Positions 53,318 through 64,000 of a DNA stretch of 64,000 nucleotides are shown piece by piece. The notes below the pieces were generated by a model. That model worked only from the letters and a program-made list of their open reading frames with translations. It ran no database searches and was not told the origin of the DNA. Position 1 is the first letter of the stretch; each line of letters starts with the position of its first letter. Origin of the DNA: Actinospica robiniae DSM 44927 (GTDB lineage: Bacteria; Actinomycetota; Actinomycetes; Streptomycetales; Catenulisporaceae); the NCBI RefSeq assembly GCF_000504285.1, contig NZ_KI632511.1:6802154-6866153 (forward strand), read 5' to 3'. The position numbers and the translations under genes are program-made.

Positions 53318-53390
53318 GGCCCCGTTGTGTAGCGGCCTAGCACGCTGCCCTCTCAAGGCAGTAGCGCGGGTTCGAATCCCGTCGGGGCTA
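53318..53390 (+). tRNA. tRNA-Glu (CTC anticodon), integration site
   Basis: A 73-base cloverleaf: acceptor GGCCCCG pairs with CGGGGCT (53383-53389, G-T at the end), D arm GTGT/GCAC, anticodon stem CTGCC/GGCAG with loop CTCTCAA (anticodon CTC), and T arm with GGGTTCGAATCCC. Its 3' end is the junction with the integrative element. Confidence 0.95.
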
Positions 53391-53391
53391 C
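53343..53391 (+). other. Probable attachment site (attL) in the tRNA-Glu 3' half
   Basis: A tyrosine recombinase gene begins to converge on this tRNA 62 bases downstream, the arrangement of pSAM2-like elements, which recombine in the tRNA 3' half and restore it. The exact core cannot be set because the matching attR copy is not found in the window. Confidence 0.6.
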
Positions 53392-53452: not shown

Positions 53453-54676
53453 CTACTCGGGCGGAGTCAGCGGAAAGTCAGCGAGCGCGTCCCGGATGCG
53501 CTGATTCCGCGCTTCGACGTCCGGCAGGACGTGCGTGTACCGGTTGAGCGTCGTAGTGACCTGTTCGTGCCCGAGGACCCGGGCGACCTCGTTGACCGGA
53601 ACGCCGGTCGAGATGAGCCACGTCGCGTATGAGTGCCGGAGATCGTGGAACCGAAGCGACTTGCCGCCGCCCCGGCTGATGTCGACGACTGCCGCATCCT
53701 CGGTCTTGGTGTAACTCCGGCACGGCTCGCCGGCCGCGTCCGTCCACGAGGCCAGGAACCGGCCGTCGTCCTGCTTCGCGATGCTGCCGAGCAGGCCGGC
53801 CCGGACGAGCGCGGGTCGCCAGACGCACAGGCGGAACGTGCCGCGGTAGAGCGGGCCGAGCGAGGCCGACACGAACAGCTCGCCACTGGGACCTGGCGCG
53901 AACTCGTCCATGTGGACCTTCAGCACCAGAGCGAGCCAGCCAGGAAGCGGGACAGTGCGGAAGCCCGCCCGCGACTTGGGATAAGGCTTCATCGAGACGG
54001 TCCCGCTGACCTCGACGACCGTCCGTCGCACAGTTAGAGTCCTGTTGCTCAGGTCGATGGAGTCGAGGCACAGGCCGAGGCACTCGCCCCACCGCAGGCC
54101 AGCACCGGCCCCGACAGCCACAAGGGCCTGGTACTGCGACGGCAGGGCGGGCAGCAGCTTCTCGCGGACAACGGGCATGGGAATGATCTGGTACGCGTCG
54201 ATGGACCGTCGCACGGACGGCAGCTTGACGCCCTCGCAGGGATTTGAGCTGATCAGTCGGTCGCGCACAGCCGCGGTGAAGACGGCGGACGTGAGCTGGT
54301 GGCACTTCACGACCGACGCCGGAGCCAGGGCCTTGGACAGTTCGACGACCCAGGCCTGCACCATGCTGTACGTGACCTTGCCCATCGGTACGTCATTCCA
54401 TCTGGGCATCACGTGCGTGCGCATGTATGAGAGATCCCGCGCGTGCGAAGTCTTCTCGGTCGCGCGGTGCTCGAGCCAGGTCGAGGCGTAGGCCCCGAAT
54501 TTGGTTTTGGCGCCGTTTGGGTCGACGTACGCGCCGCGGGTGGTCGCCGTCTCCATCTCGGCGAGGTGGGCCGAGGCTTCCCGCTTGGTACGGAACGTCT
54601 TGGCCCGCTGACGGCCGGCAGGGTCGCGCCAGTTCGCCCGGAACCCTCCGGCCGGAGTCTTGCTGATGAAGCCCAT
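53453..54676 (-). CDS. Tyrosine recombinase (integrase)
   Basis: The 407-aa integrase would insert and excise the element at tRNA-Glu. Catalytic residues are R195 (AGLRWGE), H344 and R347 (FHDLRHSY), H370 (LGHEQV) and Y380 (NRYTHV). The N-terminus carries an arm-type DNA-binding module (GGFRANWRDPAGRQRAKTF), and a similar unit (GRFLASWTDAAGEP) is inserted at about 304-330, between the first Arg and the HxxR box. The ATG overlaps the xis stop (TGATG), so the two are translated together. Confidence 0.95.
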   Translation of the reverse strand: MGFISKTPAGGFRANWRDPAGRQRAKTFRTKREASAHLAEMETATTRGAYVDPNGAKTKFGAYASTWLEHRATEKTSHARDLSYMRTHVMPRWNDVPMGKVTYSMVQAWVVELSKALAPASVVKCHQLTSAVFTAAVRDRLISSNPCEGVKLPSVRRSIDAYQIIPMPVVREKLLPALPSQYQALVAVGAGAGLRWGECLGLCLDSIDLSNRTLTVRRTVVEVSGTVSMKPYPKSRAGFRTVPLPGWLALVLKVHMDEFAPGPSGELFVSASLGPLYRGTFRLCVWRPALVRAGLLGSIAKQDDGRFLASWTDAAGEPCRSYTKTEDAAVVDISRGGGKSLRFHDLRHSYATWLISTGVPVNEVARVLGHEQVTTTLNRYTHVLPDVEARNQRIRDALADFPLTPPE

Positions 54677-54918
54677 CAGGACACTTCCTTATACTCGGCG
54701 GATGTCGCGTCCAGCCAGGCATGGAACGCGGCTTTCGGGATGACCCAGCGAGAGCCCACCTTGCGAGCGGGGATCTCGCCGTTACGGACGGCTGCATAGG
54801 TGAGGCCCAGGCCGAGGCCGAGCAAGTCAGACACCTCGTTGACGGTGTAGGTCAGCCGGGCCGAGGACCGCTCGGAGCGGACAAGGCGCAGAGGAACGAC
54901 GCTGCTCACGTTGGCCAC
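54676..54918 (-). CDS. Excisionase, MerR-like helix-turn-helix
   Basis: The 80-aa protein has the HTH_17 pattern of actinomycete Xis proteins: LTYTVNEVSDLLGLGL, then TYAAVRNGEIPARKVGSRWVIPKAAFHAWLD. It would bend DNA at the attachment sites to favour excision. GTG 54918 has its AAGGAG inside the end of the rep gene, which it overlaps by 13 bases. Confidence 0.9.
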   Translation of the reverse strand: MANVSSVVPLRLVRSERSSARLTYTVNEVSDLLGLGLGLTYAAVRNGEIPARKVGSRWVIPKAAFHAWLDATSAEYKEVS

Positions 54919-56297
54919 TCCTTGACGCGCTTTGGAAGCCTGGGCGCGTCATCGTGTCCGGCGAACGACCAGTGGTTGATAACGATGAGGTCTTCGCTCT
55001 CGGCGAACGCGGCGGTGAGCGGGTCGTGCGCAGCCATGTAGTCGGCGCGCTCCTGGCGCAAGGCACCGAAGGTGGTCGAGTACGTCCGGCTCTTGGTGGC
55101 GAAGTGTCCGCCGAAGCCGAGCATGTGAGCCCACTGCCGAAGCCGGAGAGCCGCTAATTGGGACACGGCGCCGAGACGCCAGCACGTCTCGATGAGAATC
55201 CGGTGGTGCTCGCGCAGTTCCCAAGCATCGAGGTCGTAGCGGCGGCCGGTGGCGTCGCAGGTACCGCAGGGGGTCGGGGCGTGTCCCTCGATCTGCCGGT
55301 AGCCGGTGGCGGTGCAGTCGCGGCAGGCGAGCGGGGGCAGTTCGGTGCCGGCGGTCTCGGCGCCCTTGGTGGCGTACTTGGCGATGTACCGGGCGACCGT
55401 CACGTCGCTGAGCCCGTCGCCGTCGAGCTGGTCGGCGCCGATCGGGCGGATGTCGAGTTGACGGCCCCAGGTGACGACCGGGACACCGAGCGCTTTGGAG
55501 TCGGGCAGATCGAGGCGGGCAGTGGTGACCGCTTCGCGGATGGCCCGGTCGAGGTGGTCGGCGGTGATCCAGGCTGGGGGCGGGGTGTCGGGTCCGTCTG
55601 GGCCGTCGAGGCGTACCACGGCGTGGAAGTGCACGACGCCGCGCTGCTGGTATTCGGCGACTTTGGCGAAGGTCAGGGTCACGTGGTCGCGCAGTTCGCG
55701 GCGGGGGATGCCGAGCAGGCGGGCGAAGGTGCGGCGGATTTCGGTGGTGGTAACGGACCACAGGCGGCCGGCGGCGGCGTTGAACAGGACGTGGCCGGTG
55801 TAGTCGTAGGTCTCGGGGTGCAGCGGCGTGCCGATGAGCGGGTCAGCGGCCCGGTGGTAGCGGCCGCAGCTCGAGCCGTCGCGGCGCGGGTGGCAGGGGC
55901 GGAGGGTGCCGTCTTTGGCGGGGCCGAGGTGGATCGGGCCGAAGGAGGGGGCGGTGAGGGTGATGAACAGGCGCGGGTGGACGGCGACGGTGTCCGGGGT
56001 GGCTTTGCCGCCGCGCAGGCCGGCGGCGACGAGGTTGTACGCGTCGTATTTGTAGAGGGTGGAGCAGTGGGTGCAGCGGGTGGCGCGGCGGTTGCCGCAG
56101 GGTACGGAGATCTGCCGGTCGATGCCGGATTCGAGCAGGACGCCGGTTGCTTTCTCGATCACGTCGCGTCCGCCGACGAGGCGGATGGGGTGTTCGCAGG
56201 TTCCGGCGGACTGGAGTTCGAGGGTGGCGCCGGCGATCCGAACGAGCTGGTCGAGGTTTTCGACGCCGAACGCGGTCAGGTCGAGGGTGTCGGTCAC
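54906..56297 (-). CDS. HUH replication initiator (RepSA type)
   Basis: The 463-aa initiator should nick a plus origin and start rolling-circle replication of the excised element. Motif FITLTAPSFG (111-120), the HUH pair HFHAV (223-227) and the tyrosine region VARYIAKYATKG (Y304/Y308) are in the expected order. Zinc-binding cysteines occur in CGNRRATRCTHC and in CRDCTATGY...CGTCDATG. GTG 56297 overlaps the previous stop (GTGA). Confidence 0.9.
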   Translation of the reverse strand: MTDTLDLTAFGVENLDQLVRIAGATLELQSAGTCEHPIRLVGGRDVIEKATGVLLESGIDRQISVPCGNRRATRCTHCSTLYKYDAYNLVAAGLRGGKATPDTVAVHPRLFITLTAPSFGPIHLGPAKDGTLRPCHPRRDGSSCGRYHRAADPLIGTPLHPETYDYTGHVLFNAAAGRLWSVTTTEIRRTFARLLGIPRRELRDHVTLTFAKVAEYQQRGVVHFHAVVRLDGPDGPDTPPPAWITADHLDRAIREAVTTARLDLPDSKALGVPVVTWGRQLDIRPIGADQLDGDGLSDVTVARYIAKYATKGAETAGTELPPLACRDCTATGYRQIEGHAPTPCGTCDATGRRYDLDAWELREHHRILIETCWRLGAVSQLAALRLRQWAHMLGFGGHFATKSRTYSTTFGALRQERADYMAAHDPLTAAFAESEDLIVINHWSFAGHDDAPRLPKRVKEWPT

Positions 56298-56497
56298 TTG
56301 TCACCTCCGGTGGTCGCGGCGGGGATGAGGTCGGCCAGGACGGCCCATGCGGGGTGGGTCGTGGTGGCGGCGAGCTGGTCGAGGGTGTCGGTCTTCAGGC
56401 AGGCGAGCGCGCCGAGGAGGGCGGGCAGGTCGTGTCGTTCGAGTGCCATGGCGGCGAGTTCGAGGTACGCGGCTTGGGCGAGGTCCGGGGTGTCCAT
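56294..56497 (-). CDS. Small hypothetical element protein
   Basis: The 67-aa protein is Ala/Leu-rich and helical (AQAAYLELAAMALERHDL). No family is recognised. It lies one base after the DUF2637 gene stop and overlaps the rep start, so it is translated as part of the operon. Confidence 0.6.
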   Translation of the reverse strand: MDTPDLAQAAYLELAAMALERHDLPALLGALACLKTDTLDQLAATTTHPAWAVLADLIPAATTGGDK

Positions 56498-56498
56498 G

Positions 56499-57211
<713 letters not shown>

Positions 57212-57212
<1 letters not shown>

Positions 57213-57538
57213 CACGCCACCTTCCGGGCCGTGGTGGTCTGGTCGCGGCGCAGCCGGTAGATGATCCGGGTGGACAGGGCGGGGGCGGAGATGTGGAGCG
57301 ATTCGGCGGCGCGGCGGCGGGTGTCGTGTTCCGGGCCGTAGCCGTTGCGTAGGCGCGGGGCGTAGCCGAGGGTGTTGGCGAGGTAGGTCATTTCCGCCTC
57401 GGTCAGCGCGTCGATCGGGTGGCCGTCGAGGACGCGCTGAACGGCGACGAGGTCGACCGGGCCGAGCGGGGTGTCGAGGGTGAGGCCGTCCGATTCGATG
57501 GCCGGGTCGTAGACGGTGGGGGTGGTCTTGATGGTCAT
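57212..57538 (-). CDS. Small element protein, possible DNA-binding
   Basis: The 108-aa protein ends in a basic helical segment with an HTH-like spacing (RRRAAESLHISAPALSTRIIYRLRRD), so DNA binding is possible. It starts 2 bases after the upstream gene and overlaps the DUF2637 start. No family is recognised. Confidence 0.6.
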
Positions 57539-57540
57539 GG

Positions 57541-57900
57541 TCAGGCCGCCTTGCGGTATTCGTACTCGGCGCAGGGGTGGGCGGCGGGCGGGGTGACGTG
57601 GGTGAAGCGGCCGGCGATGCCGTCAAGGGCGAGGAATTCGGCCGACTCGGCGGCGGTGATGCCGTTGGCCTGGCGGGCCATCTCGGCGAGCACGACGGCG
57701 CGGGTGCGCTTGTCGAGGTTCTTGGCCTTGAGCTGTCCGGTGCGGATCTGTTCGGCCAGCTCGCGCGGGTGCACCTCGGTCCAGGTGCCGTGCAGGTAGC
57801 CGATGCCGCGGATGTCGTTGGCGCGCAGGCCGATCACGAAGCCGAGGGAGCCGGAGGTGACGGCGGAGGCGATCGCGGTTGCCTCGATCGGGGTGAGCAT
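57541..57900 (-). CDS. Hypothetical element protein
   Basis: The 119-aa protein begins MLTPIEATAIASAVTSGSLG, perhaps one weak membrane segment, then a charged helical region (LAEQIRTGQLKAKNLDKRTR). It has a good AAAGGAA site before the ATG. No family is recognised. About 100 bases separate it from the gene upstream. Confidence 0.6.
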   Translation of the reverse strand: MLTPIEATAIASAVTSGSLGFVIGLRANDIRGIGYLHGTWTEVHPRELAEQIRTGQLKAKNLDKRTRAVVLAEMARQANGITAAESAEFLALDGIAGRFTHVTPPAAHPCAEYEYRKAA

Positions 57901-58000
57901 CAGGGGGTTCCTTTCTTTGTGTCAGCGGGTGGTGGTTCGGGCGGTTCGCGCCGAGCCCCGGGCCGGGCAGGAGGTCCGGGGATCAGCGCCAGCCGGCCGA

Positions 58001-58384
58001 TCAGGCGGCGATCAGTTCCGGGTCGGTGGGCGCCCACTCGGGCGAGGGGTGCAGGTCGTGCAGGTGGCGCCAGACCTCGAACAGCGCGCCGGAGGGCAGG
58101 CGCAGCACGGCCGCGAGCTGCCGGTACGGCGGGGTGGAGTGGGTCATCTCGTCACCGAGGAGCACCACGGCGCCGAGCGCGTCGGCCCAGGTACGGATGG
58201 CGTCGATCGCCTCGATGTCGTTTCCGAGGTGGGAGAGCTGGGCCTTTCCGCGCAGCCCGCCGTGGATGTCCGGGCTGGCGTCGATGGCGTGGATCTCGGG
58301 CAGCGCGGCCAGGTCGAGGCCGGCGAGCACGTCGGCGACCTCGCGCAGCACGGCGAGCAGGCCCACGGACTGAGGGGTGTTCAT
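58001..58384 (-). CDS. Hypothetical element protein
   Basis: The 127-aa acidic protein (LLAVLREVADVLAGLDLAAL, LGNDIEAIDAIRTWADALG) has no recognised family and no membrane segment. GAGAGGAAA precedes the ATG, and it follows the zinc-finger gene by 15 bases. Confidence 0.6.
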   Translation of the reverse strand: MNTPQSVGLLAVLREVADVLAGLDLAALPEIHAIDASPDIHGGLRGKAQLSHLGNDIEAIDAIRTWADALGAVVLLGDEMTHSTPPYRQLAAVLRLPSGALFEVWRHLHDLHPSPEWAPTDPELIAA

Positions 58385-58399
58385 CAGGGCGTTTCCTCT

Positions 58400-58597
58400 C
58401 TACGGGTGGTAGGGCTGAGCAGCGGTCTTGGTCGGGACGTCCCGGGCGATGCCGTCGCCGAAGCAGGCGAGGCACACCCCGAGCTGACCCTTGATCGAGC
58501 GGCGGGAACGGGTTACGACCTGCTCGGTCTCTCCGGTGCCGTCGCAGGCCGGGCACGGCTCGTGAGCTGCGGCGACGGTCTTCGGCTTGCGCGGCAT
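58400..58597 (-). CDS. Small zinc-finger protein
   Basis: The 65-aa protein has two CxxC-type knuckles, CPACDGTGETE and CLACFGDG, separated by a basic stretch (TRSRRSIKG), as in DnaJ-like zinc ribbons. Such small proteins are common in AICEs. GGAAGGAA precedes the ATG. Confidence 0.7.
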   Translation of the reverse strand: MPRKPKTVAAAHEPCPACDGTGETEQVVTRSRRSIKGQLGVCLACFGDGIARDVPTKTAAQPYHP

Positions 58598-58682
58598 GAC
58601 GTTCCTTCCGGGGTGTTCGGGGACGGGTGTGGCTAGGGTCAGGGCTCGGTGAACCGTGACCAGCGGGTTTACGGGGAGGTGG

Positions 58683-60044
58683 TTAGGCTGTTAGCGCGTC
58701 GTCGTCGACGGCGTGAAGGCCTCGGATGGCGTACTCGATCAGGGCGAGCGGGTCGGCGACCAGGTGCGCAGTCGCCTCGGCGAGCGCGATCGTGTCTGCG
58801 TCGCTGGTGAACGGGTTACGTACGAGGGTGTAGCCGGAGCGGCCCTCGGCGAGCACGGTCATCACGCCAATGAACGCCGGGTCTTGCAGCCGGCGCGGGT
58901 GCGCGTGCGGATAGTCGGCGATGTCCTCACCGAGCGCGGCTTTCGCTGCCTCTGTGGAGCGCTGGGCGAAGGACATCGCGATCTGGCAGGCGTCACGGAT
59001 CGAGGTCGGAACCGCCTCGCCGGTCGGCTTCTGCGTCAGGAACATCAGCTGAATACCAAGGGCACGACCCATCCGCACCATGTCACCGCACATGCGGATC
59101 ATCTCGCGTACGAGCTTGTCCCGCGTGACCGAGGCGTCATCCCTCAGCTTGGACTCGAACAGGAACCAGTGCGCCTCATCCATGATCAGCTTGATGAATG
59201 GCCATGCGGTGACCGGAGCGCCGTCCCAGAAGTTCTTACGCCCCAGGACGGCGCGGATCTGATCCTGCCTCGTCTCGAACAGCGTGTAGACCTTCGAGAT
59301 GACCCGGTGCGCGTCCTCGATCGAGGCGCCGGCGTAGAGCCAGGCGCGCAGGGCGAGATCTTCGAGCTCATAGCCCTTGCCGTCGATCAGCGCGAACTGG
59401 ACGTGGGGGCAGGGTGCGAGTTTGGCGAACCGGTGGCGCACGAGCGCGGTCTTACCGGTGCCGGACAGCCCGCCGACGATGATTCCGGAGACGTTCGCGG
59501 TCCGGACGCTCACGGGAGCGGCGTACCGGTCGTGCCCGAGTTCCCAAGCCCGCAGGTCCACCACGTCATCAGGCGACGGGGTGAAGCTGGTCCGGTTCCG
59601 CAGCGCATCCTTGAGCGTCACGCGCAGCCGCAGCCGGCCCGGCTTGCCCGGGGAGACCGAGACGAACCGCACCCGCCACGCGTTGGCCAGGTCATCACAG
59701 GCCCGCTCGAACGCCTCGAGCCCGAGCTTGCCCACGGCGCGCACCTCGACCTGGACGCCCCCGGGAATCGGGGTGACCTTGATACGCGGTACCAGGATCT
59801 TCTCGCTCCGGTGCGCCCGCAGTTCCTCAACCAACGGCACCTCCGCGCCGACCTTCGCACCGTGCACCGCCTGGAACAGACCCACCCGCACCGCGGTACG
59901 ACGCCAGGTCGCGCGGATACGCCACGCCTTGCGCAGCACCGCCTGCCGATCGCGGTCCGACAGGACGTAGCGAGTTGCGGAGGTCACGGCCACAGCGGCC
60001 GGCGGCGCGGCGGTTACTGCGCCGAAGAGCGCGAGAGCTTCCAC
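58683..60044 (-). CDS. FtsK/SpoIIIE-type DNA translocase (TraB/TraSA)
   Basis: The 453-aa ATPase would pump double-stranded element DNA into a recipient, as in Streptomyces plasmid transfer. It has one N-terminal hydrophobic segment, Walker A GLSGTGKT (192-199), Walker B IKLIMDE (284-290), and FLTQKPTGEAVPTSIRDACQIAMSF typical of FtsK proteins. The C-terminus lacks a long gamma extension, but SLRRLQD-like sequence could contact recognition repeats. GTG 60044 has GGAGGT at 60051-60056 and overlaps the previous gene by 31 bases. Confidence 0.92.
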   Translation of the reverse strand: MEALALFGAVTAAPPAAVAVTSATRYVLSDRDRQAVLRKAWRIRATWRRTAVRVGLFQAVHGAKVGAEVPLVEELRAHRSEKILVPRIKVTPIPGGVQVEVRAVGKLGLEAFERACDDLANAWRVRFVSVSPGKPGRLRLRVTLKDALRNRTSFTPSPDDVVDLRAWELGHDRYAAPVSVRTANVSGIIVGGLSGTGKTALVRHRFAKLAPCPHVQFALIDGKGYELEDLALRAWLYAGASIEDAHRVISKVYTLFETRQDQIRAVLGRKNFWDGAPVTAWPFIKLIMDEAHWFLFESKLRDDASVTRDKLVREMIRMCGDMVRMGRALGIQLMFLTQKPTGEAVPTSIRDACQIAMSFAQRSTEAAKAALGEDIADYPHAHPRRLQDPAFIGVMTVLAEGRSGYTLVRNPFTSDADTIALAEATAHLVADPLALIEYAIRGLHAVDDDALTA

Positions 60045-60226
60045 GAGCGCACCTCCCCGACCACGAACAGCACCAGAAACCGCACGAGCTTGTAGGCGAG
60101 ACGCACCAGCACGGCCACCGAGGCGGCGATGTCCTTGACCCACGCGTACGCCGGGTGGCGCACCAGGCGCCGCGCGAGGGTAAGCGCGGCGACCGGAGCG
60201 ACGACGACAACCAGCAGAGTCCCCAC
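60014..60226 (-). CDS. Small membrane protein upstream of the translocase
   Basis: The 70-aa protein has two hydrophobic segments (GTLLVVVVAPVAALTLA and a second around residues 33-57) and a basic tail (RSWKLSRSS). It overlaps the translocase start by 31 bases. It may assist the translocase in the membrane; no family is recognised. Confidence 0.6.
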   Translation of the reverse strand: MGTLLVVVVAPVAALTLARRLVRHPAYAWVKDIAASVAVLVRLAYKLVRFLVLFVVGEVRSWKLSRSSAQ

Positions 60227-60231
60227 GTCGA

Positions 60232-60552
60232 TCAGCCCTTGACCAGAGACAGGGCGGCGGCGCGGTACATGTACCAGGCCTTGCCGTTCTTCACGTCCGT
60301 GACCAGGGTCAACCCGGTCGCCTTGACCATCGAACCCATCTTCACTTCCTCGGCCATGCCGGTCACCGGCACCGTCACCCGCATCGTCAGCGGCTGACCG
60401 TCGTCGGTCGGCATCACCAGCGGCACGTCCATCAGCGGCGCACCGGTCGCCCGGTCCACAGCCGGCTGACCGACGTTCGCCCGGTCCATCTGCGGGGTAG
60501 CCGGGCCGACCGCCAGCAGCGTCCGGGAGTTGTCCATCGGAATGATCAGCAT
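60232..60552 (-). CDS. Conserved AICE protein of unknown function
   Basis: The 106-aa protein starts MLIIPMDNSRTLLAVGPATP after GGAGGA, giving ATG 60552. It contains GKAWYMYRAAALSL at its end. Proteins of this kind recur next to traB in actinomycete elements, sometimes noted as regulatory; no motif confirms that. It lies 5 bases upstream of the small membrane protein and 91 bases below hairpin copy A. Confidence 0.65.
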   Translation of the reverse strand: MLIIPMDNSRTLLAVGPATPQMDRANVGQPAVDRATGAPLMDVPLVMPTDDGQPLTMRVTVPVTGMAEEVKMGSMVKATGLTLVTDVKNGKAWYMYRAAALSLVKG

Positions 60553-60642
60553 TCTGGTTCCTCCATGCGAGATGTGAGATCGGAAATCACGAGGCGGAGC
60601 ATGTGCGATGCTGAACGAGACCCCCGACCGCATCGCGGCGGA

Positions 60643-60700
60643 GGGAAGAGCCCGGGTGGCGGCGGTCTGTTCTTGGCGGAAGGGAACGCCGCCCCCCGGG
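60643..60700 (-). repeat. Hairpin element copy A (conserved loop, pairing stem)
   Basis: On the minus strand CCCGGG and GGCGGCG (60695-60700 and 60687-60693) pair with CGCCGCC (60658-60664) and CCCGGG (60651-60656), enclosing a 22-base loop (60665-60686) containing CTTCCGCCAAGAACAG. The loop and the following GGGCTCTTCCC are identical to copy B, while the stem differs but still pairs. Confidence 0.75.
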
Positions 60701-60709
60701 TGCCTGCTG

Positions 60710-60856
60710 CTATCGGAGCCAGCGCCGCGCGGTGTTGTCCGCGATCCGCGCGCGCTGACCGTCCCCGACGTTCTCGTTGATCCGGGTCCGCTGGGCCACC
60801 TGCTCAGCGGTGATGCGCTCGTCAGCAGTGGCTTCGACGACCAGACGACGGGCCAT
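60710..60856 (-). CDS. 48-residue basic protein between the hairpin copies
   Basis: ATG 60856 follows GGAGGG by 8 bases and opens a 48-codon frame: MARRLVVEATADERITAEQV..., ending NTARRWLR. It is basic and helical, with a helix-turn-helix-like spacing (ITAEQVAQRTRI). It lies directly downstream of operators and hairpin copy B and ends just before hairpin copy A, as the first gene of the minus-strand operon. It is too short for confident family placement. Confidence 0.65.
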   Translation of the reverse strand: MARRLVVEATADERITAEQVAQRTRINENVGDGQRARIADNTARRWLR

Positions 60857-60871
60857 GTAAACACCCTCCTA

Positions 60872-60931
60872 GGGAAGAGCCCGGGACTCTGGCCGTCTGT
60901 TCTTGGCGGAAGGGAAGACCATGGATCCCGG
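60872..60931 (-). repeat. Hairpin element copy B
   Basis: On the minus strand CCGGGA (60926-60931) and TGGTC (60917-60921) pair with GGCCA (60890-60894) and TCCCGG (60881-60886), enclosing the same 22-base loop (60895-60916) as copy A. The inner stem sequence differs from copy A throughout but remains paired. It lies 16 bases upstream of the 48-aa ORF. Confidence 0.75.
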
Positions 60932-60960
60932 ATGCGAGTCCTACAGACAAGTACCTCTGT

Positions 60961-61012
60961 AGTCCTTTATAGGAGTTGCCTGAAAGCCTGTCAAGGACTC
61001 CTGTATAGGAGA
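60961..61012. promoter_or_regulatory. Two repressor operators upstream of the transfer operon
   Basis: AGTCCTTTATAGGAGT (60961-60976) and ACTCCTGTATAGGAGA (60997-61012) are near-perfect palindromes of one type, matched by ACTCCTGTAGTGGAGT at 61806-61821. The consensus is ACTCCTNTANNGGAGT. They lie between the repressor gene end and the first operon gene, so the HutC-type repressor probably blocks transcription there. Confidence 0.75.
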
Positions 61013-61021
61013 TTTTGAGGG

Positions 61022-61795
61022 CTAGTCGGCGGGGAGCTCGTAGGAGAGAACGAACAGGTCAGCAGTCATGACCGTGTCACACACCTCAACGGGCGTACCG
61101 TCCGTGTCGTACGCCGTCCTCAGCACCCGCATCACGGGTGTTCCAGCGGCCAGGTGAAGAGCCCTTGCCTCATCAGGTAGAGGCATGCGCGCCGTGACGT
61201 CCTCGGTGAACTTTCCGAGGCGGTGACCGGTCTCTTCAATCCGTGCGTAGATCCCACCAGGCCCCGGGTACTGCTCAGTCATCTGAGTGCCGTCGGCGAT
61301 TGACCAGGGGATGTACGACGTAGCGATCTCCATCGGCGTGCCGCTGTGAAGGTAGCGCCGGCTGCGCACGAGGACCGTAGAGCCAATAGGCACGCTGAGG
61401 CGTTCGGCGATCTCGTCGGGTGCAACATCCGGTCCGACCTTCGAGACCTCTACGTCGTGCTTGATGCCCTGCGCCTCAGCATCCACCGTGTACGCAGCCT
61501 TACCCGCATCGCGATGGGCCCTCAGGAACCGATTGGATGCCTTCCGCTGCATCGGCGGCCGCGCTCGAACGAACACACCTTTCCCATGCTCAGCGATGAT
61601 CAGGCCCTCGGCTCGGAGCACATTGAGCGCGTTCCTGACTGTGCCCTGAGCAACCCCGAACGAGCGGATCAGTTCAGACTCGCTGGGGATCTTCGCCCCG
61701 GGAGCAAGTTCCCCACTGCCGACAGCGGCACGGATGGCATCGGCGATCTGCTTGTACGCCGGCCGATCGCTTGTGGGGTCGATTGTCGTCAGCAT
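61022..61795 (-). CDS. GntR/HutC-type repressor (KorSA-like)
   Basis: The 257-aa regulator has an N-terminal winged helix (PAYKQIADAIRAAVGSGELA, IPSESELIRSFGVAQGTVRNAL, GLIIAEHGKGVFV) and a C-terminal UTRA ligand-binding domain. In pSAM2, KorSA of this family silences transfer. ATG 61795 has GAGGAG upstream and matches the family start. An operator in its own promoter region (61806-61821) and two more past its stop suggest self-control and control of the downstream operon. Confidence 0.92.
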   Translation of the reverse strand: MLTTIDPTSDRPAYKQIADAIRAAVGSGELAPGAKIPSESELIRSFGVAQGTVRNALNVLRAEGLIIAEHGKGVFVRARPPMQRKASNRFLRAHRDAGKAAYTVDAEAQGIKHDVEVSKVGPDVAPDEIAERLSVPIGSTVLVRSRRYLHSGTPMEIATSYIPWSIADGTQMTEQYPGPGGIYARIEETGHRLGKFTEDVTARMPLPDEARALHLAAGTPVMRVLRTAYDTDGTPVEVCDTVMTADLFVLSYELPAD

Positions 61796-61805
61796 GGAAC
61801 TCCTC

Positions 61806-61821
61806 ACTCCTGTAGTGGAGT
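61806..61821. promoter_or_regulatory. Operator between the repressor and NUDIX genes
   Basis: ACTCCTGTAGTGGAGT is the third copy of the operator consensus, in the 39-base gap between the divergent starts, where it would regulate both genes. Confidence 0.75.
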
Positions 61822-61834
61822 ATACGCTGGAGCT

Positions 61835-62272
61835 ATGAGACCGGAACCCTCGCCGAAGCACTCGGTCAGCGTTGCAGCAGCCGTCATCGATGGCACAGGT
61901 CGAGCGCTCGCTGTGCAGCGCCGAGACAACGGGACGTGGGAGCCTCCAGGCGGAGTGCTCGAGCTAGGCGAGTCGATTCCGGAAGGCCTCGCCCGCGAGG
62001 TCCTCGAAGAGACCGGCTTGACCATCGAGGCGGAGTCAGTCTCCGGCGTCTACAAGAACATGAAGCACGGCATTGTGGCGATCGTCTTCCGTTGCCACGT
62101 CACTGGCGGGAAGCTCCGCGCGAGCGATGAGACGACGGCCTTCGCGTGGCTCGAACCCAACGAGATCAAGCAGCGCATGAACGAGGTCTTCGCCGTGCGA
62201 GTCCTGGACGCGTACGAAGCAGACGGGCCGAAGGTCCGCAGCCACGATGGCGTGAACCTGCTGCCGCGGTGA
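61835..62272 (+). CDS. NUDIX hydrolase, Pif-like
   Basis: The 145-aa protein has a perfect NUDIX box GVLELGESIPEGLAREVLEETGL-type pattern (G-x5-E-x7-REVLEETGL) within residues 39-61. In pSAM2 the immunity factor Pif, which blocks redundant transfer between element-bearing cells, carries a NUDIX motif; the location beside the KorSA-like gene supports a Pif-like role, but activity on nucleotides is equally possible. ATG 61835 follows GGAG by 4 bases. Confidence 0.8.
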   Translation: MRPEPSPKHSVSVAAAVIDGTGRALAVQRRDNGTWEPPGGVLELGESIPEGLAREVLEETGLTIEAESVSGVYKNMKHGIVAIVFRCHVTGGKLRASDETTAFAWLEPNEIKQRMNEVFAVRVLDAYEADGPKVRSHDGVNLLPR

Positions 62273-62299
62273 TGGGCTAGAACTTTCTCTACAAGGATC

Positions 62300-62361
62300 A
62301 AGGCGCGCCGTTCCGTCGCGCGGCCCCGTCCCCCTGGTTCCGCCGGCCGGAAAGATCAGGG
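62300..62361 (+). repeat. Inverted repeat, left arm
   Basis: This 62-base arm matches the reverse complement of 62983-63044 at about 59 positions, including CCCCGTCCCCCTGGTTCCG. The arms enclose about 620 bases without a convincing gene. Confidence 0.9.
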
Positions 62362-62982
62362 CGGGCAAAGACGGGTGGGGTGGGTTCGCGCTGGGGGCAG
62401 GCGACCACGCGGTGAGGCAACGGCAGACAGCGAAGAATACGGGCACCAGGCCCGCCGCCCGGGTCGGCCGGCGAGGCCATGAATGCTCAAGCGTCACCGC
62501 TCAGAACCTCGAGAACCGACACGCCAGGACCGGGCTGTGTGGCCACTCCCAGGGCTTGCACCGAGCCCACGCCGTCAGACTGCGTGATCGAGTTTGATGG
62601 GTCTTCCCCTGCCTCTGAAGGAGCCAAGGGAGCGGTCGAGGCCTTCACGAAGCCCTCAGCACATCCCCACGGGATGCACTGGCCCGCGCTCGCCCGGGCG
62701 CCTGCGTTCCGCGCGCCCGGCGGCGCGGCCAGCACCCAGGAAGAACCTGGACGCCGGAAGCCGACCACCCCGCACCAGAATGCGGGAACCCACACCCTCA
62801 TCGCCGCCACAGCAAGCCACGAACGCCCCAGAAACCACACCCCCAAACCAGACCCGACGACCACGAACCCAACCAGGAACACCGACCCCACGACAACCAG
62901 CTACCAGCACCAGCAGGTACCGAGGATCGGCGAACAAGCAAAAGGAACGAAGGGATAAGCAGGGGGAGTTGCGCTGGGGGAG

Positions 62983-63044
62983 CCCTGGTCTTTCCGGCCG
63001 GCGGAACCAGGGGGACGGGGCCGCGCGACGGAACGAGGCGCCTT
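62983..63044 (-). repeat. Inverted repeat, right arm
   Basis: The partner of 62300-62361 in opposite orientation. The shared length far exceeds chance; there is no transposase between the arms and no clear target-site duplication outside them. Confidence 0.9.
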
Positions 63045-63229
63045 GGCCCTCTTCGAGCACGAACCCAGCCACCACCGAGCCAACTTCCTCCAGCTGCACC
63101 CCGTCACCGTCCCGGACACTCACACCCGCGGCGAACTCACGCACGTGGCCGGAGAGAGCGAAAAGCAACGCCTCCGGCGGGCCACCTCGGGGATGATTCA
63201 ACGGGTCAGGCTGCGGTCTGTGGGTGGTG

Positions 63230-63381
63230 GCGGGGCTGCTCGGATCATCCCCGCGGACGCCACCCGGAGGGCTGCCAGACGCCGGCCAACACGTCAAGAC
63301 GAAAAGCATGTCTTGACGCGCCGACCACCGCCCGGCAGAACAGGAGTTTGCCGCCCCCGGGGATGATCCGAGCAGCCCCGC
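63230..63381. repeat. Long imperfect palindrome, candidate single-strand origin or transfer site
   Basis: A perfect 23-bp outer stem (63230-63252 with 63359-63381) encloses partly pairing sequence and a perfect central hairpin CGTCAAGAC/GTCTTGACG (63292-63300 with 63310-63318), all sharing one centre. A 150-base foldback in a rolling-circle element resembles a single-strand origin; a transfer locus is the alternative. Confidence 0.6.
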
Positions 63382-63494
63382 TCTATCGGTGAAGTAGATC
63401 GCAAGTGATTTAATACATGAAGCTGACTCCAAGCGGCAGTCTATAACGATACGGTTACAGATTTTCTCGCATGCAAGCGACTTTGTGAGATGGG

Positions 63495-63627
63495 CTGAAC
63501 TTATTCAGTCGCACGCAGTCGGAGTTGATTTGAATCAACTATAAACGTGCAGGTCAAGCCCACTATAGGTTGCACGCGTGCAACTTTCTTGCTTGGCATA
63601 CCAAGCCCGGGCACTGAGTTCACTCAG
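63495..63627. repeat. Cluster of five short palindromes
   Basis: In order: CTGAA-N4-TTCAG (63495-63508), AGTTGATT-TG-AATCAACT (63523-63540), perfect GTTGCACGCGTGCAAC (63569-63584), GCTTGG-N4-CCAAGC (63591-63606) and CTGAG-N4-CTCAG (63614-63627). The region is clearly more AT-rich than its surroundings. It may hold the promoter and operators of the gene at 63767 or part of an origin. Confidence 0.65.
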
Positions 63628-63689
63628 CAATCCGGCGACGTGCGGCAGAGTTGCCAAACTGATACCTTCTGGCGAGCGGCAGGCCGCGC

Positions 63690-63725
63690 AAAAAAGGCGG
63701 CCCTCTGTTGGACCAGAGAGCCGCC
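63690..63725 (-). terminator. Minus-strand intrinsic terminator
   Basis: Read on the minus strand, GGCGGC and CAGAG-type stem sequences (63714-63725) pair with CTCTG/GCCGCC (63696-63707), followed by six Ts (complement of 63690-63695). It would end a transcript coming from the right, across or antisense to the gene at 63767. Confidence 0.75.
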
Positions 63726-63766
63726 ACGCACCCGTATGCCCTTAGCAGAGAGATAGGAGTGCTTCC

Positions 63767-63973
63767 ATGAGGGTACCCGTTTTGGCACGTCCTGGCGACA
63801 AGCGGCCTCGCCGCCGTATCGCGTTCGGCCTCACCGGAGGCGTGGTCGCTTCCACCGCGTGTGCCGCTGTGTGGCCGCAGGCTGGCACGCCGGTTTTGGT
63901 CGCCCTTACGGCGTCCGGCGTGGCCCTCACGGGCTGGCTCGTGTGCCTCACGAGGGGCACACAAGGCGAGTAG
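63767..63973 (+). CDS. Small two-segment membrane protein of the element
   Basis: The 68-aa protein has a basic start (RPGDKRPRRR) and two hydrophobic segments (FGLTGGVVASTACAAVW and VLVALTASGVALTGWLV), like small Spd proteins of actinomycete plasmids. The ATG follows TAGGAG by 7 bases. It is probably the first gene of a plus-strand unit continuing past the window. Confidence 0.6.
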   Translation: MRVPVLARPGDKRPRRRIAFGLTGGVVASTACAAVWPQAGTPVLVALTASGVALTGWLVCLTRGTQGE

Positions 63974-64000
63974 CAGTACCGCAGCGGAGTACAGCAACAG

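Follow-up and report, generated by a model that had tools for sequence, protein, structure and literature searches.

The window, a 64,000-nucleotide stretch of the genome of Actinospica robiniae DSM 44927, carries two copies, here called H1 and H2, of a small hairpin. Comparison with its relatives in other mobile elements demonstrates its composition: the hexaloop CGCCAA caps a 3-bp apical stem that covaries, and a small internal loop separates this stem from a lower one of variable sequence. That a selected folded structure exists is near certain. Its role is inferred: our preferred explanation, put forward tentatively and without replication data, is that it acts as a DNA hairpin during replication, where a factor of the host recognizes it.

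Two hairpins in an AICE of Actinospica robiniae

The mobile element in the window is a pSAM2-like AICE located on the minus strand beside a tRNA-Glu gene, which is likely its attachment site. The features of the AICE and of the two hairpins are the following (R2 is the refined covariance model described below).

53318..53391, plus strand: tRNA-Glu, adjoining the integrase end of the AICE
54906..56297, minus strand: RepSA replication initiator (PF20199, E 5.9e-132)
58683..60143, minus strand: FtsK/SpoIIIE-type transfer protein (Pfam, 22.9 bits, cut-off 24)
60232..60552, minus strand: 106-aa SCO3933/Pra-type protein, downstream of H2 (NF051478, E 4.3e-14, 52.6 bits, curated cut-off 80)
60643..60653, minus strand: 3' flank of H2, GGGCTCTTCCC, read from the sequence
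60651..60700, minus strand: hairpin H2, outer stem CCCGGG/CCCGGG, inner stem GGCGGCG/CGCCGCC, R2 score 60.7 bits
60673..60678, minus strand: H2 hexaloop CGCCAA, with the 3-bp apical stem UUC/GAA at 60679-60681 / 60670-60672
60710..60856, minus strand: 48-aa open reading frame between H1 and H2
60872..60882, minus strand: 3' flank of H1, GGGCTCTTCCC, predicted to pair with the ribosome-site region after it
60881..60931, minus strand: hairpin H1, outer stem CCGGGA/TCCCGG, inner stem TGGTC/GGCCA, in the leader of the 48-aa ORF, R2 score 49.8 bits
60903..60908, minus strand: H1 hexaloop CGCCAA, with the 3-bp apical stem UUC/GAA at 60909-60911 / 60900-60902
60966..60994, minus strand: promoter-like TTGACA-17-TATAAA upstream of H1, a sequence reading, amid operator-like inverted repeats
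61022..61861, minus strand: GntR/UTRA regulator, KorSA-type by position

Within the pSAM2-type gene set RepSA and the GntR gene are present, FtsK is just under the cut-off, and the SCO3933 family is under its cut-off; the integrase was assigned solely because it resembles a plasmid integrase annotated as such. As the 18-base stretch of the tRNA-Glu 3' end (53373) is found only once in the window, it did not reveal the right attachment site of the AICE. H1 lies between the GntR/KorSA-type gene and the 48-aa ORF, starting 34 nt downstream of the −10-like box of the promoter-like site (TTGACA at 60994-60989 and TATAAA at 60971-60966, minus strand). The stop codon of the 48-aa ORF is followed by 9 nt, then by H2, and then by the SCO3933/Pra-type gene. 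A tblastn search for homologs of the 48-aa ORF over the collected loci had no match outside the window's own genome. Inverted repeats of the CTCCTATANAGGA type recur around the promoter-like site upstream of H1 (window 60940-61020) and look like operators of the GntR-type gene.

Sequence comparison bore out the statement of the initial annotation that the two copies share 22 identical bases (60665-60686 and 60895-60916), which are part of a shared block of 26 bases with one mismatch (60661-60686 and 60891-60916), and that the same 3' flank, GGGCTCTTCCC, follows both on the minus strand. A flank resembling it, GGGCTCNTCCC, was recognized by eye in loci L217, L228, L232, L249, and L260. The differing inner and outer stems pair in both copies, as had been claimed. 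On the other hand, the 22 bases had been described as a loop and this part did not hold, since they are not open: UUC CGCCAA GAA forms a 3-bp stem capped by a hexaloop, with an internal loop beside it.

H1 is the weaker of the two copies, and its inner stem includes one G-U pair. The RNA folding z scores of the minus strand are −1.59 for H2 and −0.76 for H1, the corresponding DNA values are −3.90 and +0.22, and H1 folded as DNA reaches only −7.2 kcal/mol. The folding energies in the window are by themselves not beyond chance, and relatives were therefore needed to support a claim of structure; the case rests on the repeat and on the comparison with other mobile elements, not on energies. The window's genome has no third match to either model (R1 at E≤0.1, R2 at E≤0.01), and the exact loop core is found in its 9.9 Mb single contig at two places only, H1 and H2.

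Relatives and conservation of the structure

The exact 16-mer loop was found in 28 stretches of viral contigs; in 391 genomes of the order it occurs three times, H1 and H2 accounting for two. Such exact searches alone are misleading, and the sole convincing copy that they gave beyond the window is L040. A looser 14-mer was found in at least 120 stretches of viral contigs. L105, L040, and L109 were chosen by the score of the stems around the loop and L149 by eye; L012, L132, L092, L111, and L110 outscored L149 in this first scoring, while with a mismatch-tolerant score L149 ranks high and those five are absent. L163, a relative of L105, was added through a longer string. L012, a short hairpin with 20.2 bits, was considered as a copy but is probably due to chance and was dropped.

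A covariance model, R1, built from the six hairpins of alignment A2, matched 15 of 147 genomes of the same order at E≤0.1, in 19 places, 14 of which have the CGCCAA loop. The refined model R2 was built from the 20 rows of alignment A3, which omits L169, L171, L175, L177, and L181 for lack of the CGCCAA loop and L182 by its E-value. R2 matched 110 of 391 genomes of the window's order at E≤0.01, 6 of 296 genomes of a phylum sample (some of which overlap the order sample), and, at E≤0.02, 15 of 239 genomes of the order to which genome G587 belongs. The E-values of both models are rough, and at E≤0.01 per genome about 4 of the 391 genomes are expected by chance. From the 137 R2 places in the order, 81 (79 regions) were inspected together with the window's two, and the remaining 54 are mostly weak. 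In the genus of the window, neither of the other two genomes is matched by R1 or R2. All 11 records searched in a viral collection have one match each; one of them, L414, looks like an AICE with a primase/polymerase (prim-pol) gene. BLAST searches of plasmids and phages with the 361-base region or with single hairpins of the window or L040 gave chance-level matches only, whereas a Streptomyces-type hairpin as query matched three plasmids, all copies having CGCCAA. The covariance-model search that had been proposed as a check yielded further copies in many AICEs, in AICE-like Streptomyces plasmids, and in several phage contigs.

Two copies per stretch are found in five stretches, the window, L218, L239, L260, and L268. 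L559 carries, besides its main copy, a weaker second CGCCAA hairpin with three G-U pairs. In the examined stretch of L011, the locus of a Pra-type homolog from Actinocrinis, a CGCCAAGAAC-type core is absent.

In the 18 distinct rows of A3, standard pairs occupy 94.4% of the pair cells versus 67.8% in shuffles, and 30-51% are paired in slid-partner controls; two-sided changes are found at 11 of 11 modelled pairs, the covariation score is 0.615 versus 0.153, and RNAalifold returns the same structure. The pairing in A3 is favored because the alignment was fitted to its structure. The hexaloop is CGCCAA in all 91 aligned matches (86 sources), and the apical stem pairs in 89 of them with six compositions: TTC/GAA (41), TCT/AGA (36), TCA/TGA (6), ATC/GAT (4), GTC/GAC (1), and TAC/GTA (1). 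The mispaired TCT/AGT is found in the other two. These are not 91 independent tests, because many of the matches are related and the model favors the loop. Likewise, bias affects a permutation count of the hexaloop (92 versus at most 2), which used loci selected by the model. The fair control is a census of 60 AICE loci (227 kb) that were selected by RepSA or SCO3933-family protein homology alone: at a stem score of at least 32 all 10 hairpins of the same geometry have CGCCAA (5) or its mirror TTGGCG (5), and at a score of 24 these loops account for 5 and 5 of 40, each other loop being found at most once. A seventh apical composition, AAC/GTT, comes from such unbiased loci. The proposal that a conserved loop on covarying stems marks a selected structure is upheld by stems that vary and still pair in independent elements; what would have refuted it, a lack of more copies or unpaired stems in homologs, was looked for, and the copies pair and vary.

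Four copies from one phage group (L149 at 2984, L412 at 6059, L461 at 3965, and L494 at 7575) have one C-A or A-C stem mismatch. In the same group a second inverted repeat follows the hairpin within about 30 nt (GAGCCAGG ... CCTGGCTC in L149 and L412).

Gene context and orientation of the copies

In the initial annotation each copy was said to precede a gene of the transfer operon, a description that, elsewhere, is not the rule. The first recognized gene on the sense side of 98 copies, identified by similarity to a few references only, is within 250 nt downstream a prim-pol gene in 43, a DNA methylase-type gene in 26, RepSA in four, and a Pra-type gene in four; it is further off in seven, and none of the references is found in 14. 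The commonest class consists of Streptomyces AICEs and three small plasmids (H90-H92), in which a tra-/spd-type or hypothetical gene and its stop codon are followed by the hairpin and the start of a bifunctional DNA primase/polymerase gene, and then by DUF3631- or YfjI-type, HTH, and integrase genes. RepSA is next on the sense side in L235, L255, L557, and L558, and the hairpin is further upstream of it in L503, L505, L506, L508, and L522. In L228, L232, L249, and L260 the order is promoter-like site, hairpin, Pra-type gene. The hairpin follows a DUF669 gene in L163 and an HTH_17 gene in L494. In the AICE class of L228, L232, L249, and L260 a small gene and the Pra-type gene are divergently oriented, and promoter-like sites and CGCAG-type repeats occupy the interval.

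Among the loci chosen by protein homology, the hairpin is present in the examined stretches of five RepSA loci and one SCO3933-family locus, out of 30 each, and it is therefore not an essential origin of all AICEs. The closest sister AICE, L217, is 66%, 60%, and 67% identical to that of the window in RepSA, Tra, and the Pra-type protein, respectively; since its copy is upstream of another gene, the hairpin is not bound to one gene. In the stretches compared, no protein common to the window AICE and L163, L105, L040, L149, L412, L461, L420, or L109 was detectable, and L428 and L494 have the integrase alone in common with it. This lack of common proteins among carriers suggests a host factor. 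The comparison covered stretches rather than whole phages, and one AICE stretch (L208) was also without a match at the cut-off.

When 96 distinct copies were scored for a start codon with a ribosome-site match, 71 had it on the sense side only, 11 on both, one on the antisense side only, and 13 on neither. The distance from hairpin to start codon is mostly 32-38 nt, and many copies start about 4 nt after a stop codon. The hairpin was found by eye between a promoter-like site and a start codon in five leaders (window H1, L228, L232, L249, and L260) and in an early-region position in some phage contigs. Antisense copies belong to a family of ten loci from the order of G587 (L560-L568 and L205, the latter being the same place as L275), of which six are antisense, none is sense, and four have no start by the start-codon rule. 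L569, from the same order, is antisense by this rule and L275 by gene layout. In the L275 family and in L569 the hairpin occupies the usual place between stop and start codons with CGCCAA on the strand opposite to the flanking genes, and in L275 the RepSA gene runs with these genes. L557, L558, and L559 are sense by the same rule and L570 by eye. With the contexts grouped by hand, 14 are sense and two antisense (p 0.004). The ribosome-binding site is within a small palindrome directly ahead of the start codon in 49 of 85 motif leaders (e.g. L221 and L254 of the prim-pol class), compared with 76 of 384 control starts; the motif leaders in this count are not independent. A boxA-like GCUC was seen by eye in the window, L217, and L228-type copies and not in the prim-pol class.

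Possible roles of the hairpin

The suggestion of a chance repeat or simple duplication without function could appeal to the modest single-copy folding scores in the window, but it is refuted by the covariation in A3, the constancy of the hexaloop in 91 of 91 matches, and the protein-homology census. The DNA-hairpin explanation is preferred only by a hair over a near-equal rival. According to it, during replication of the mobile element one strand, either single-stranded or extruded as a cruciform, would fold into the hairpin, whose CGCCAA tip would be recognized by a host factor not encoded in the element. The most plausible outcome would be that DNA synthesis is started or primed there or that a replication protein is loaded, as happens at single-strand initiation sites and origins, and the usual intergenic place of the hairpin may be just the free space in compact elements. 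It is supported by the scarcity of G-U pairs: 119 copies, with 49 distinct arm pairs, have 5 G-U pairs, 574 Watson-Crick pairs, and 15 other positions, compared with 33 G-U and 463 Watson-Crick pairs in 22 tRNAs of these GC-rich loci (Fisher p 1.6e-7, or 3e-5 without the main Streptomyces class; the p value overstates the case because the rows share ancestry). A subset without H1 and later loci has one G-U versus 340 Watson-Crick pairs, and chance hairpins of the same geometry have 13-23% G-U. The orientation that is not fixed, the lack of a tie to one gene, the replication genes downstream (prim-pol or RepSA), and, for the host factor, carriers without a detectable common protein point the same way. 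Against it, a few G-U pairs do exist (in window H1, L213, L290, L557, and L569, with three more in the weaker L559 place), and their scarcity could also result from template-switch correction of the arms or from strong selection for stable stems. Furthermore, 26 of the 98 copies precede a methylase-type gene and 14 something else, the hairpin is missing from most RepSA and SCO3933-family loci examined, and H1 is weak as DNA. The strong sense bias and the five promoter-hairpin-start leaders would be natural for RNA, and they support the rival explanation, which is itself no more than possible: an RNA leader or intercistronic element, the CGCCAA tip of which would bind RNA polymerase or some RNA-binding protein and which would control how the following gene is translated, processed, or read through. 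The spacing to the start codon, the copies close behind stop codons, the excess of ribosome-site palindromes, the early place in some phage contigs, and the presence of rare G-U pairs in several lineages all agree with it, but G-U pairs rarer than in tRNAs, the antisense L275 family and L569, and downstream genes that differ even between sister AICEs do not.

The remaining explanations have much less in their favor. It is improbable that the hairpin is a strand-specific single-strand origin whose orientation follows the direction of rolling-circle replication of the RepSA type: the conserved loop on a variable stem, a hallmark of such origins, is present, the hairpin sometimes adjoins RepSA, and AICEs replicate autonomously (PMC3218068, available in part), but it is also found before prim-pol genes and in phages, it is sense to RepSA in four loci and antisense in L275 (the replication strand is not known), and it is absent from the stretch examined at 25 of 30 RepSA loci. 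The antisense L275 case, which speaks against strand-specific use, is also a difficulty for the DNA-hairpin explanation. There is very little room for a double-stranded operator of an element-coded regulator, in which the palindrome would be a symmetric binding site only. Operator-like repeats do lie close to H1, but arms and apical stem vary with pairing kept, which counts against it because a duplex reader would conserve the arm sequence, and the published SCO3932 site, AC[TC]T[AG]TT[GC][TG][GT]ACG, is different (PMC8584621, consulted in part). An intrinsic terminator is disfavored still more: the stems are GC-rich and often located past stop codons, but by eye no T-run follows the stem in the aligned copies, and neither an invariant loop nor a 3-bp apical stem is needed for termination.

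The hairpin belongs to the known class of cis-acting hairpins with a conserved loop. The single-strand origins of rolling-circle plasmids and ICEBs1 are hairpins with a conserved loop and a freer stem, the CS-6 sequence being TAGCGT. They resemble the present hairpin in this architecture on autonomously replicating mobile elements; the loop differs (CGCCAA rather than TAGCGT), the orientation to the RepSA gene is inconstant, and copies are found in phage contigs and before prim-pol genes. Initiation hairpins of the G4 and RSF1010 types are read by primase, and here the likeness is that a single factor could read the conserved tip of a folded strand in unrelated replicons, although for the present hairpin no priming has been shown and no sequence comparison was made. 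The lambdoid boxB/nut and HK022 put sites are conserved-loop RNA hairpins early in phage operons, put RNA being recognized by RNA polymerase; the present hairpin likewise has a conserved loop and an early place in some phage contigs, but it has antisense copies, and a boxA-like GCUC was seen in some copies only. In the Streptomyces plasmid pWTY27 the origin includes an inverted repeat bound by RepA, a replication protein proposed to read a DNA stem-loop, and RepB is a predicted primase/polymerase; it differs in having a repeat of about 105 bp with iterons and an unprotected loop, and no CGCCAA hexaloop was noticed in the part of the source available (PMC3583192). The SCO3932/KorSA operators come from the same AICE neighborhood, with a GntR gene and a SCO3933/Pra gene, but are a duplex binding motif and not a hairpin loop (PMC8584621, same partial source).

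The CGCCAA hairpin itself has no Rfam family and no description that we could find, in agreement with the initial view that no described element has this loop. A search of Rfam 15 with window 54000-64000 at E≤5 gave one unrelated match (58728-58776, 19.8 bits, E 3.9), taken as chance, and with L040, L105, L149, and L109 at E≤1 only tRNAs; the literature was covered by text searches, which a description in other wording would escape.

Of the genomes sampled from one large bacterial order, more than a quarter are matched by this cis-acting structure with its constant hexaloop. The hexaloop that AICEs and phages have in common suggests that one factor acts on mobile elements that are unrelated in other respects. 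It is conceivable, although rather unlikely as it stands, that the hairpin is a portable "landing hairpin" in unrelated actinomycete AICEs, plasmids, and phages, an undescribed single-strand initiation signal that combines sequence and structure, with CGCCAA read by one conserved host replication factor. The factor, if found, would open AICE replication or gene control to study, and the CGCCAA loop is a simple handle for finding and testing carriers.
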